From NCBI GenBank assembly GCA_946486375.1, contig CAMLTW010000005.1:124001-188000 (forward strand): a stretch of DNA of 64,000 nt, in the 5' to 3' direction. Positions 1,331-44,893 of this stretch are shown piece after piece. The notes under the pieces are model-generated. The model saw nothing but the letters and a program-made list of their open reading frames with translations. It searched no databases and was not told where the DNA came from. How positions within the stretch are numbered: position 1 is the stretch's first letter; each line of letters opens with the position of its first letter. This DNA is from an uncultured Rikenellaceae bacterium. GTDB taxonomy: Bacteria; Bacteroidota; Bacteroidia; Bacteroidales; Rikenellaceae. The position numbers and the translations under genes are program-made.

Positions 1331-1494
1331 GTAAAATTCGGGATAACGGTAAGGATTAAAGCTCCGATTTATAAATCCATTTTTCTCTTTCCGGCTTTAT
1401 CGTCGGACTTTTTATCCGGGCTGCGTTTGATATATTTTCCATTTCATTAATCCAACCCTTTTGCGCAAATAATTGGATTTAAACATATCGGAAC

Positions 1495-2372: not shown

Positions 2373-2535
2373 GGAAGAATGCGGAACCTGGCGGATTTTC
2401 CGGCGCTTTTCATTTATATTTGTCGAAGAAAGCCGGTAAGGATTTGCATGGAGGACTTTGTTTCGAGTACAGGTGTTTCTCACGACCTTGGGTAGAAGCT
2501 TTGTTTCTCCATGCTTCTTTTTTGGAAGGAGGGGA

Positions 2536-2566
2536 TTTGCAAAGGGAATAATTTCTTGTATATTTG
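2536..2566 (+). promoter_or_regulatory. Bacteroidota-type promoter in repeat copy A
   Basis: TTTG at 2536-2539, then exactly 19 bp, then TATATTTG at 2559-2566. This matches the -33 TTTG / -7 TAnnTTTG promoter with standard spacing. A transcript would start near 2572 and run through the hairpin at 2638-2698. The only ATG near its start is followed directly by AAG TAA. Confidence 0.6.
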
Positions 2567-2637
2567 TTTCACGAACCAAACGAAAAAGCATGAAGTAAAG
2601 CGTAAAAACGGTATTTGACATATTACTAAAAATAAGC

Positions 2638-2698
2638 GGTGGCTTGTTTTTACCCCTTAAAATCTGAGAAATTTTGCAACAGGTAAAAACGGCTCACC
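2638..2698 (+). ncRNA. Candidate structured RNA, copy A
   Basis: Long imperfect stem: 2638-2642 pairs with 2694-2698, 2644-2654 with 2682-2692, including GTTTTTACC (2646-2654) against GGTAAAAAC (2682-2690). Inside it a second stem pairs 2658-2663 with 2671-2676 around the loop CTGAGAA. Its twin in copy B keeps the fold through paired changes. The downstream end of the transcript is not defined; no good terminator is seen. Confidence 0.45.
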
Positions 2699-2810
2699 CG
2701 TCCGGGTCGCGGATGCGGCAAGGGCGTGGGGGCATTATATTTCTGTTGCGGGCTTCTCAGAGCCATAAGGGAGATATTTGTTCCCATGCTTCTTTTTTGG
2801 AAGGAGGGGA

Positions 2811-2841
2811 TTTGCAAAGGGAATAATTTCTTGTATATTTG
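2811..2841 (+). promoter_or_regulatory. Bacteroidota-type promoter in repeat copy B
   Basis: TTTG at 2811-2814, 19 bp, TATATTTG at 2834-2841; identical in sequence and spacing to the element of copy A. A transcript would begin near 2847. Confidence 0.6.
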
Positions 2842-2910
2842 TTTCACGAACCAAACGAAAAAGCATGAAGTAAAGCATAAAACGGTATTTGACATATTAC
2901 TAAAATAAGC

Positions 2911-2972
2911 GGTGGCTTGTTTTTATCGCTCAAAACCTGAGAAATTTTGCAACAGATAAAAACCAGCTCACC
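2911..2972 (+). ncRNA. Candidate structured RNA, copy B
   Basis: Equivalent of the copy A hairpin: GTTTTTATC (2919-2927) pairs with GATAAAAAC (2955-2963), with outer pairs 2911-2917 to 2965-2972 around one bulge, and inner stem CAAAA (2931-2935) with TTTTG (2945-2949). Relative to copy A one C-G pair became T-A and one T-G pair became C-G, so pairing is kept while sequence changes. Confidence 0.45.
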
Positions 2973-3053
2973 CGTCCGGGTCGCGGATGCGGCAAGGGCG
3001 TGGGGGCATTTATTCCTATTACGGGCTTCTCAGGGCCTCGAGTGAGATATTTG

Positions 3054-3084
3054 TTCCCATGCTTCTTTTTTGGAAGCATGGGAA
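3054..3084. repeat. Perfect 12-bp inverted repeat
   Basis: TTCCCATGCTTC (3054-3065) and GAAGCATGGGAA (3073-3084) are exact reverse complements around the loop TTTTTTG. It sits at the truncated third copy of the tandem repeat. Half of this palindrome ends each repeat copy, and a relative, AAAAGAGGCATGGAAGC, follows at 3104-3120; another is at 17548-17570. Confidence 0.75.
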
Positions 3085-3273
3085 AGATTCAGGCCCGAAT
3101 CCCAAAAGAGGCATGGAAGCAAAACGCGACGATCGGCCCGAACCGGCAAAAAAACGGGACAGGCCCTCGGAAATCCGGACAAACGCGCTACCTTTGTGGA
3201 AGCATTGTAACACGACATAGCTCGTGTTCTGAATAAATTTACGAAGCAACAACTTATTGTTTACTGCTCAAAA

Positions 3274-3389
3274 ACTAGCACTTTTAAGAGGGGTAAAATG
3301 GAACGTAAGTTGCTCTGCCTTTGTTGTGTCTGTTCATTTCGACATAGCAATGGCGCGGGAGCAACATCCATTTTACGGTCCGTGCTAGT
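3274..3389. repeat. Nested inverted repeat, MITE-like, 116 bp
   Basis: Outer arms ACTAGCAC (3274-3281) and GTGCTAGT (3382-3389) enclose GTAAAATGGA (3293-3302) with TCCATTTTAC (3367-3376) and GTTGCTC (3309-3315) with GAGCAAC (3359-3365), all in register for one long cruciform. The centre is about 45 bp and non-coding. No clear target-site duplication flanks the ends, so a mobile origin is not proven; it could equally be a structured leader or regulatory site 70 bp upstream of the SLOG gene. Confidence 0.6.
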
Positions 3390-3459
3390 ACCGAGAGCGG
3401 TGTGTTGTAAACCCGCGCTTCTTGTTTGCGGGGTATTGTAAAACCCTCATTTCCCATTC

Positions 3460-4005
3460 ATGAAAACGCCTATCATTCCGGCCCGGACGGTCGCCTTCTC
3501 CGGCTACCGTCCGGCCAAACTCCGGCAAAGCGCCGGTTCCGATATACTCACCACCCTGCCGAATCGTCTGCACCGCACTATCCTTCGTCTGGCCGAAAAC
3601 GGTTTCGATACCTTCCTTTGCGGCATGGCAGAAGGATTCGACCTGTTGGCCGCACGCGCCGTGCTGGAAGCAAAAAAGACGTTTCCGACCCTGCGGCTGG
3701 CAGCGGTCGTTCCCTTCCCGGAACAGGCCCGTGCTTTCTCTTCGGACTGGAAAGCGGAGTACGACCGCACGCTGACGGCGGCGGACGATTCGGTGCTGAT
3801 CGCCTCGGCCTACCATCGGGGATGTTACCACCGGCGCAACGATTTTCTGGTTGCCAACGCCTCGGTGCTGGTCTGCTACTACGACGGCCTTTCCGGAGGC
3901 ACGAAATACACCTTCGAGAAAGCCTCACGCCGCGGACTTCGCATCCTAAACCTCGCCCTGCCCGACCCGCCGGAAGAACCCGTAACCTTTTCCGGCCATG
4001 AATAG
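3460..4005 (+). CDS. SLOG-family protein (DUF1273/YspA type)
   Basis: A 181-residue Rossmann-like protein of the SLOG superfamily, whose members bind nucleotides or nucleotide-derived ligands. Family marks seen are FSGYRPAKL at residues 13-21, CGMAEGFDLLAA at 54-65, RLAAVVPFPEQ near 79-89 and the C-terminal YYDGLSGGTKYT, a glycine-rich loop expected to hold phosphate. Length is normal for the single-domain group. No signal peptide or membrane segment, so it is cytoplasmic. Its last 8 bp overlap the start of the next gene, so the two are probably translated together. The ligand and function are not known for this group. Confidence 0.85.
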   Translation: MKTPIIPARTVAFSGYRPAKLRQSAGSDILTTLPNRLHRTILRLAENGFDTFLCGMAEGFDLLAARAVLEAKKTFPTLRLAAVVPFPEQARAFSSDWKAEYDRTLTAADDSVLIASAYHRGCYHRRNDFLVANASVLVCYYDGLSGGTKYTFEKASRRGLRILNLALPDPPEEPVTFSGHE

Positions 4006-4528
4006 AAAAGAGGAAGCGCTGTACCGGGACAGCCTTTATTTCGTGACCAGCCGCCCGGATGCCACGGCGGAACAGGTGCCTGCCCGCCTGCTGCGTTTCT
4101 GGCTACGTCTGCCCTATGAACATCTGGATATGGCTTTCTATGTCTGCACCAATCCGCAGACGGCGGTGTTCCACGCCCTGCTGATGGCGTACCACATGCG
4201 CCGGGGGTGCGAAGTGGAATACATCGCGCAGGAAGAATTCCGGGAACGGAAGGCGTCCGGAGAATACCGCGTGCGCGAATGGGGCGAAGGACGTTTCGAG
4301 CGGTTGGAACCGGCGGACGGGAAGGGCGTCGTGCTGGCCTCGGAAGAGGAATTCACCGACCTGTTCAAAACGTTCCACACCTTCGTGCGGGATGCGTACC
4401 GGGCAAGGCGTCCGTTTTCCCATCCCTGCCGGTTCCTGCGCCGGAAACGGCTGCGGGGGCTGAAACTTTTCGCCCTGCACGAATATCCGAGACACTATCC
4501 CCTGGTCGCCTTCACCCGGAACGATTGA
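3998..4528 (+). CDS. Unknown 176-residue protein overlapping the SLOG gene
   Basis: I do not recognise this family. The ATG at 3998 lies within the last codons of the SLOG gene, and a strong hairpin terminator follows 65 bp after the stop, so the two genes form a closed pair. The protein is soluble, with no signal peptide. The N-terminal half (YVCTNPQTAVFHALLMAYHM, about residues 47-66) is aromatic and helix-like. The middle is rich in Glu and Arg, and the end is strongly basic (residues 133-155). A link to nucleotide sensing is only an inference from its partner. Confidence 0.75.
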   Translation: MNRKEEALYRDSLYFVTSRPDATAEQVPARLLRFWLRLPYEHLDMAFYVCTNPQTAVFHALLMAYHMRRGCEVEYIAQEEFRERKASGEYRVREWGEGRFERLEPADGKGVVLASEEEFTDLFKTFHTFVRDAYRARRPFSHPCRFLRRKRLRGLKLFALHEYPRHYPLVAFTRND

Positions 4529-44660: not shown

Positions 44661-44893
44661 AGAACGGGCCGGAGGCCATGGTAATTTCTTTGCAACGGAA
44701 TCGGCAGGTTCCGTTTCCTTCGCCGGACGTCCGTCGCCCTGTCGAATCCATTCGGAAAGGAAATTCCTCATTTCGGAAACCCTTGTTTCCGCTCCCGTGT
44801 CGGGCCCTTATTTTCGCCCCGTAAGCTTACGAACCACGACACGGCGGAATCCGAAAAGCCGAAGACAGAGTAGGAAAAAAACAACCCGAAAAC

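Follow-up and report, generated by a model that had tools for sequence, protein, structure and literature searches.

A stretch of 64,000 nucleotides from an uncultured Rikenellaceae bacterium (contig CAMLTW010000005.1; hereafter the window) carries three copies of a new class of structured RNA, absent from Rfam 15, that recurs across Bacteroidota and most often lies shortly ahead of a gene. We consider it probable that the RNA acts as an attenuator-like or riboswitch-like leader, two of the window copies (A and B) being stand-alone or duplicated versions, and the third, diverged one preceding a gene for a YpsA-family SLOG protein (Table 1).

Units A and B each consist of a Bacteroidota-type promoter, a structured RNA of about 230 nt and a U-tract, with no gene directly behind either, and their initial 99 nt are identical at 99%. 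The first-pass annotation had described this region as two tandem promoter-hairpin units; repeat starts, spacings, both promoters and every letter that it named were found as given. The long hairpin assigned to each unit is also present but is longer than described, the structure extending to the U-tracts. The predicted fold of unit A has a z score of -4.5, none of 200 shuffled sequences being equally stable, and that of unit B a z score of -2.4, with 3 of 200 shuffles equally stable. Two paired changes between the units had been taken as signs of selection on structure. The first, C2653-G2683 in A and T2926-A2956 in B, lies in helix P0, which two diverged copies elsewhere in the genome are also able to form; judged by eye on the alignment, the helix is possible in each of the genome's four complete unit copies. 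The second, T2658-G2676 against C2931-G2949, is a genuine compensatory change to which the wrong partner had been assigned, since in the structure common to the family the partner of position 2658 is 2767, a P1 pair that is T-A in A and C2931-G3040 in B. The units also share a minimal frame, ATG-AAG-stop, at about 2590-2598 and 2865-2873, which recurs in every unit copy (ending in TAA in A, B and the copy on contig C7, and in TAG on contigs C1 and C28) and could be a start-stop element or a product of chance.

Table 1. RNA copies and adjoining genes in the window.
Feature	Position	Strand	Remarks
Decayed copy	2415-2530	+	TATATTTG -7 box at 2415-2422, short spacer, then unit 3' end
Unit A	2509-2783	+	Spacing to unit B 275 nt
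Promoter of A	2536-2566	+	TTTG-N19-TATATTTG
RNA of A, approximate transcript	2573-2798	+	Start placed from the promoter; R2 match 2649-2797, 100.1 bits (unit A is itself in the R2 training set)
Helix P0 of A	2638-2654 / 2682-2698	+	Stem noted in the first-pass annotation
Helix P1 of A	2654-2659 / 2766-2771	+	
Internal loop of A	2660-2662 / 2762-2765	+	AAA / GCCA
Helix P2 of A	2663-2670 / 2754-2761	+	
Helix P3 of A	2676-2682 / 2743-2749	+	
Pseudoknot/terminator pairing of A	2724-2732 / 2781-2789	+	Followed by U-tract 2790-2798
Unit B	2784-3056	+	Next spacing 273 nt
Promoter of B	2811-2841	+	TTTG-N19-TATATTTG
RNA of B, approximate transcript	2848-3071	+	R2 match 2922-3070, 98.2 bits (unit B is itself in the R2 training set)
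Helix P0 of B	2911-2927 / 2955-2972	+	
Helix P1 of B	2927-2931 / 3040-3044	+	
Helix P2 of B	2936-2943 / 3027-3034	+	
Pseudoknot of B	2998-3006 / 3054-3062	+	Followed by U-tract 3063-3071
Perfect inverted repeat across U-tract of B	3054-3084	+	Alternative partner for the pseudoknot 3' strand
Third copy, -7 box of promoter	3189-3196	+	TACCTTTG
Third copy (core of the SLOG gene leader)	3260-3426	+	Fold z = -4.7; R2 match 81.2 bits (this copy is itself in the R2 training set)
Helix P1 of third copy	3264-3269 / 3395-3400	+	
Helix P2 of third copy	3274-3281 / 3382-3389	+	
Pseudoknot of third copy	3353-3359 / 3412-3418	+	U-tract 3419-3427
YpsA-family SLOG protein gene	3460-4005	+	PF06908, E = 3.9e-18
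ORF2	3998-4528	+	Follows the SLOG gene

The family goes beyond the two units originally noticed. The SLOG gene starts about 33 nt past the U-tract of the third copy and is followed by ORF2, for which no Pfam match was obtained and a relative of which, judged by eye, stands behind another copy of the RNA on contig C10. Ahead of unit A there is a decayed copy, recognized by a weak match to the covariance model R1 (2493-2522, 13 bits) and by the aligned 3' ends. The window at 1500-2370 is intergenic and packed with imperfect repeats such as CGTCATCCTGAGGAGCAACGTAAGTTGCGACGTGAGGATCTC, which are likely dispersed repeats.

A similarity search at the DNA level found the unit in its own genome, on contigs C1, C28 and C7 (the last cut by the contig end), and nowhere else. 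In these copies the promoter and the 5' part are conserved and the stems have diverged. The covariance model R2 matches 11 places in this genome. Contig C1 holds a second SLOG/ORF2 module (L002), whose SLOG protein is 98% identical to that of the window, whereas the ORF2 products share only 55% identity and the leader RNAs, although comparable in architecture, are very different in sequence; this mosaic suggests gene conversion beside fast divergence.

In the fold shared by all three window copies, an AAA/(A,G)CC internal loop separates helices P1 and P2, beyond which comes a long interior hairpin; the 3' strand preceding the U-tract pairs back into this hairpin. Stem sequences are almost wholly different among the copies, and the pairing is kept. 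Strong structure, with z scores down to -10.8, also marks the DNA ahead of the nearest SLOG homologs from other genera, and from inspection of these regions a descriptor was drawn up (P1, AAA, P2, interior, G-rich strand, P2', CC loop, P1', 3' strand, U-tract), which gave scores of 59-66 to nearly all known copies, at most 41 to shuffled sequences and 45 to the best unrelated match. One copy (L018) was not caught, probably because of the U-tract pattern only, and was added by hand. In the Bacteroidales set the hairpin comprises P1, P2, P3a, P3b and a nearly invariant apical P4 (GCUCACGCC/GGCGUGGGC). Since plain MAFFT alignments of the RNA put the 3' arms in the wrong place, R1 was built from trimmed, gap-free sequences (alignment A5: 12 copies with linkers and interior trimmed, and one internal-loop A removed in four rows). 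It was then used to realign the unedited sequences (A7) and to build R2, so that all later counts rest on unedited sequences (A7, A8, A9 and A10). At L048, about 1620-1790, a decayed copy whose interior is deleted precedes a SLOG frame with an internal stop.

Selection on the RNA structure, which had been proposed from the two units alone, is supported by very strong covariation. In the 12 curated copies 19 of 24 pairs have changed on both sides, and the covariation score is 0.773 against 0.275 for shuffled alignments. Although alignments A7-A9 were fitted to the model structure, which favours that structure, the shuffled and slid controls still lay far lower: the scores were 1.040 against 0.272 for the realigned unedited sequences (A7), 1.026 against 0.253 for 50 distinct copies from the bacterial family, and 0.705 against 0.161 for 92 distinct copies from the whole phylum. 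Together these scores answer the covariance-model check over many copies that the first-pass annotation had called for. None of 500 shuffles reached the observed value in the 12-, 50- and 92-sequence sets, and slid controls stayed at or below 0.28. The nested structure also covaries within the Bacteroidales set (0.392 against 0.127), whereas P0 and the pseudoknot counted together covary weakly there (0.140 against 0.106). For P0, covariation is weak beyond the unit copies, an analogous pairing being present in other Bacteroidales; the pseudoknot is nearly invariant in the Bacteroidales set and is informative across families only. Cross-pairing could not tell own partners from foreign ones for P0, P3 or the pseudoknot, whose strands are partly conserved in sequence, and was therefore uninformative on them. 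A G.U pair becomes A.C on the opposite strand: G.U outnumbers A.C by 53 to 1 in the pseudoknot and by 40 to 17 and 74 to 32 in P1/P2, indicating that selection acts on the transcribed strand.

The RNA is widespread. R2 matched 158 of the 268 genomes of the bacterial family, 81 of the 393 genomes of the order and, at a stricter cut-off, 18 of 296 genomes in a sample of the phylum, with up to 11 copies per genome. A sequence pattern retrieved at least 119 stretches from public genomes, among the matches listed being Bacteroides, Phocaeicola, Parabacteroides, Prevotella, Flavobacterium, Chryseobacterium, Pedobacter, Alistipes, Fibrobacter and others. Of those examined, the majority are also full-length R2 matches, which is a largely independent check, the pattern representing just a part of the model. 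The few pattern stretches in metagenome bins of other phyla may be mis-binned. Of three IMG/VR contigs with the pattern, two match the model; a single 19-mer match of the unit in IMG/VR (L016) does not match it and looks like chance. Nearly identical loci composed of the RNA and a RibD_C-type gene occur in several species of Bacteroides, Phocaeicola and Parabacteroides (L119, L139, L141, L156, L157, L177 and L191), which suggests recent transfer; the similar locus L110 also holds rteR, the sRNA of CTnDOT-type elements.

The position of the RNA relative to genes favours the leader reading. In 79 of 123 copies (64%) an open reading frame of at least 70 codons starts 20-75 nt past the U-tract, against 15% of random positions and 3% on the reverse strand, with about a third of the copies having none at the usual distance. 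A TAnnTTTG box was found upstream in 95 of 135 relatives (70%) and in 5% of random stretches. Because most copies stand about 50 nt ahead of a gene, we prefer an attenuator-like leader to the two other possibilities raised initially, a small RNA and a structural DNA element. The RNA resembles riboswitch and attenuator leaders in its site 5' of the gene, its complex, conserved and covarying fold, its pseudoknot and the candidate competing pairings around the U-tract; it differs from them by the lack of a shared gene function, by numbering up to 11 copies per genome and by the stand-alone tandem arrangement of some copies. The downstream genes are unrelated (SLOG, ORF2-like, HTH-like, RibD_C, C5 DNA methylase, CsgG, PEGA, PAP2 and glycosyltransferase), include many small secreted proteins and have no common function that would point to a ligand. 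A SLOG-specific non-coding RNA was rejected as the main reading when the model matched the RNA before many other genes.

Attenuators and riboswitch expression platforms are usually built on pairings that compete around a U-tract, and a comparable arrangement may exist here. The G-rich strand of P4 in the Bacteroidales set is also complementary to the strand directly ahead of the U-tract. Among 116 non-redundant copies, 113 can form a pseudoknot of at least 6 bp and 97 a competing pairing of at least 6 bp with an upstream (5') partner, but the shuffled means of 6.3 and 5.2 bp are high, so that this evidence is modest, supportive rather than decisive. In many copies a further strand past the U-tract is able to pair with the 3' strand, as in the perfect inverted repeat of unit B. 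Against the leader reading it counts that the terminator-like stem encloses about 50 nt, more than in a standard intrinsic terminator. It is reasonable to suppose that transcription would start at the Bacteroidota promoter some 60-90 nt upstream of the conserved core, and that the nascent RNA would form P1, the AAA/(A,G)CC loop, P2 and the long interior hairpin. Within this hairpin the G-rich strand GCGYRGG would have two rival partners, the upstream hairpin strand or the 3' strand CCYRCGC located directly before the U-tract. Pairing with the 3' strand would create a terminator-like end, whereas pairing upstream would leave the 3' strand free and allow the polymerase to continue to the gene, which begins about 50 nt on; which of the two prevails would depend on a signal sensed by the conserved core. 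In this way the third copy (3260-3426) would control the SLOG gene, and units A and B, having their own promoters and U-tracts, would give RNAs of about 230 nt. Of this scheme, the computations show the fold and its covariation, the pairing in the pseudoknot, the promoter and U-tract, the site ahead of genes and the broad distribution; termination, switching and the signal are inferred. A broader proposal, on balance doubtful, is a hitherto undescribed riboswitch-like class spanning the phylum: one conserved pseudoknotted core would detect a shared cellular signal and regulate numerous accessory genes unrelated to one another, and free-standing tandem copies would work in trans on the same regulator.

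Among the rival explanations, a family of trans-acting sRNAs is the most plausible, although we regard it as unlikely. Stable RNAs of about 230 nt would bind a protein or mRNAs, and their proximity to genes would reflect read-through or hitch-hiking on mobile accessory genes. This would account for A and B, complete promoter-RNA-U-tract units with no gene between, for the recurrence of tandem copies at L026, L069 and L107, and for copies that face a convergent gene (L064, L066 and L092); a free sRNA, however, needs no same-strand reading frame at a closely kept spacing of about 50 nt, as seen in far more copies than in either control. For A and B themselves a role as stand-alone sRNAs is possible, given their own promoters and the lack of a gene directly behind. 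That the structure acts as single-stranded DNA, in a hairpin recombination site, a cassette-associated site or a MITE, seems improbable: copies do lie ahead of accessory genes, including nearly identical RibD_C-type genes over several genera, and B ends in an inverted repeat, but most relatives have a dedicated promoter, the orientation to the gene is fixed, the copies are dispersed rather than in arrays, and the strand-specific tolerance of G.U, extreme in the pseudoknot, is at odds with a strand-independent structure.

The SLOG protein might instead be the toxin of a type III-like pair, with the three window copies as its tandem antitoxin RNAs, since the order of promoter, pseudoknotted RNA, U-tract and SLOG gene is repeated in several genera (L017, L018, L019, L026, L027, L047, L052, L053 and L069). 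We hold this to be very improbable, because the RNA also stands before numerous unrelated genes, is missing from other SLOG homologs, and takes very different forms beside two SLOG proteins that are 98% identical. ToxIN likewise places a pseudoknotted RNA and a terminator before the gene, whereas the new RNA has no short tandem repeats (the unit being 273-275 nt), no ToxN/AbiQ, and stands before many gene families. Least credible of all is a retron or another reverse-transcriptase-linked RNA, which the short hairpin followed by a long hairpin of variable sequence recalls in overall look: no reverse transcriptase was noticed among the genes behind the RNA, and in the whole genome a single RVT_1 match was obtained (C1:425246), about 180 kb from the nearest copy. 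By eye that enzyme (L046) looks like part of a diversity-generating retroelement, and repeated ...LRCV... frames lie upstream of it.

With regard to novelty, no Rfam 15 family reached its gathering score at the cores of the new RNA, in agreement with the initial view of an undescribed RNA, and the matches below threshold are weak and to eukaryotic or unrelated families. Comparison also sets the class apart from retrons and from two multicopy RNAs of the phylum. The FopS sRNAs of Bacteroides, which are in Rfam and consist of a single-stranded 5' seed stretch and one terminator hairpin (PMC11697453), are likewise paralogous, multicopy and driven by sigma-ABfr promoters in Bacteroidota, but the structure of the new RNA differs and no FopS match appeared in the Rfam search. 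Flavo-1 (RF01705), a multicopy RNA motif of Bacteroidetes (PMC2864571; discussed in PMC9723704), had no match in 18 flavobacterial and related loci carrying the new RNA. Two large RNA-discovery papers do not mention Bacteroidota genera in their text; PMC8040213 lists RNA candidates by the thousand without names, among which some fragment could overlap the new RNA.

To our knowledge, the phylum Bacteroidota, to which major bacteria of the human gut belong, has few known regulatory RNAs. The family is probably a common yet unnoticed gene switch in these organisms; a leader RNA carried by most genomes of a single bacterial family would add a regulatory layer over accessory genes, and named strains of Bacteroides, Parabacteroides, Prevotella, Flavobacterium and Chryseobacterium also carry it.

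The cis-regulatory RNA families DUF805 and DUF805b (RF03081 and RF02914) are shorter, with 68 and 35 positions, and have separate models that the cores of the new RNA do not match, but DUF805 is found in the same loci. DUF805 RNAs are located at 1684-1749 and 2648-2716 of L116, one between the new RNA and the gene start and another just ahead of the next gene, and at 1390-1458 (minus strand) of L113, and the window itself contains a DUF805b RNA above its gathering score at 44841-44876 (plus strand).
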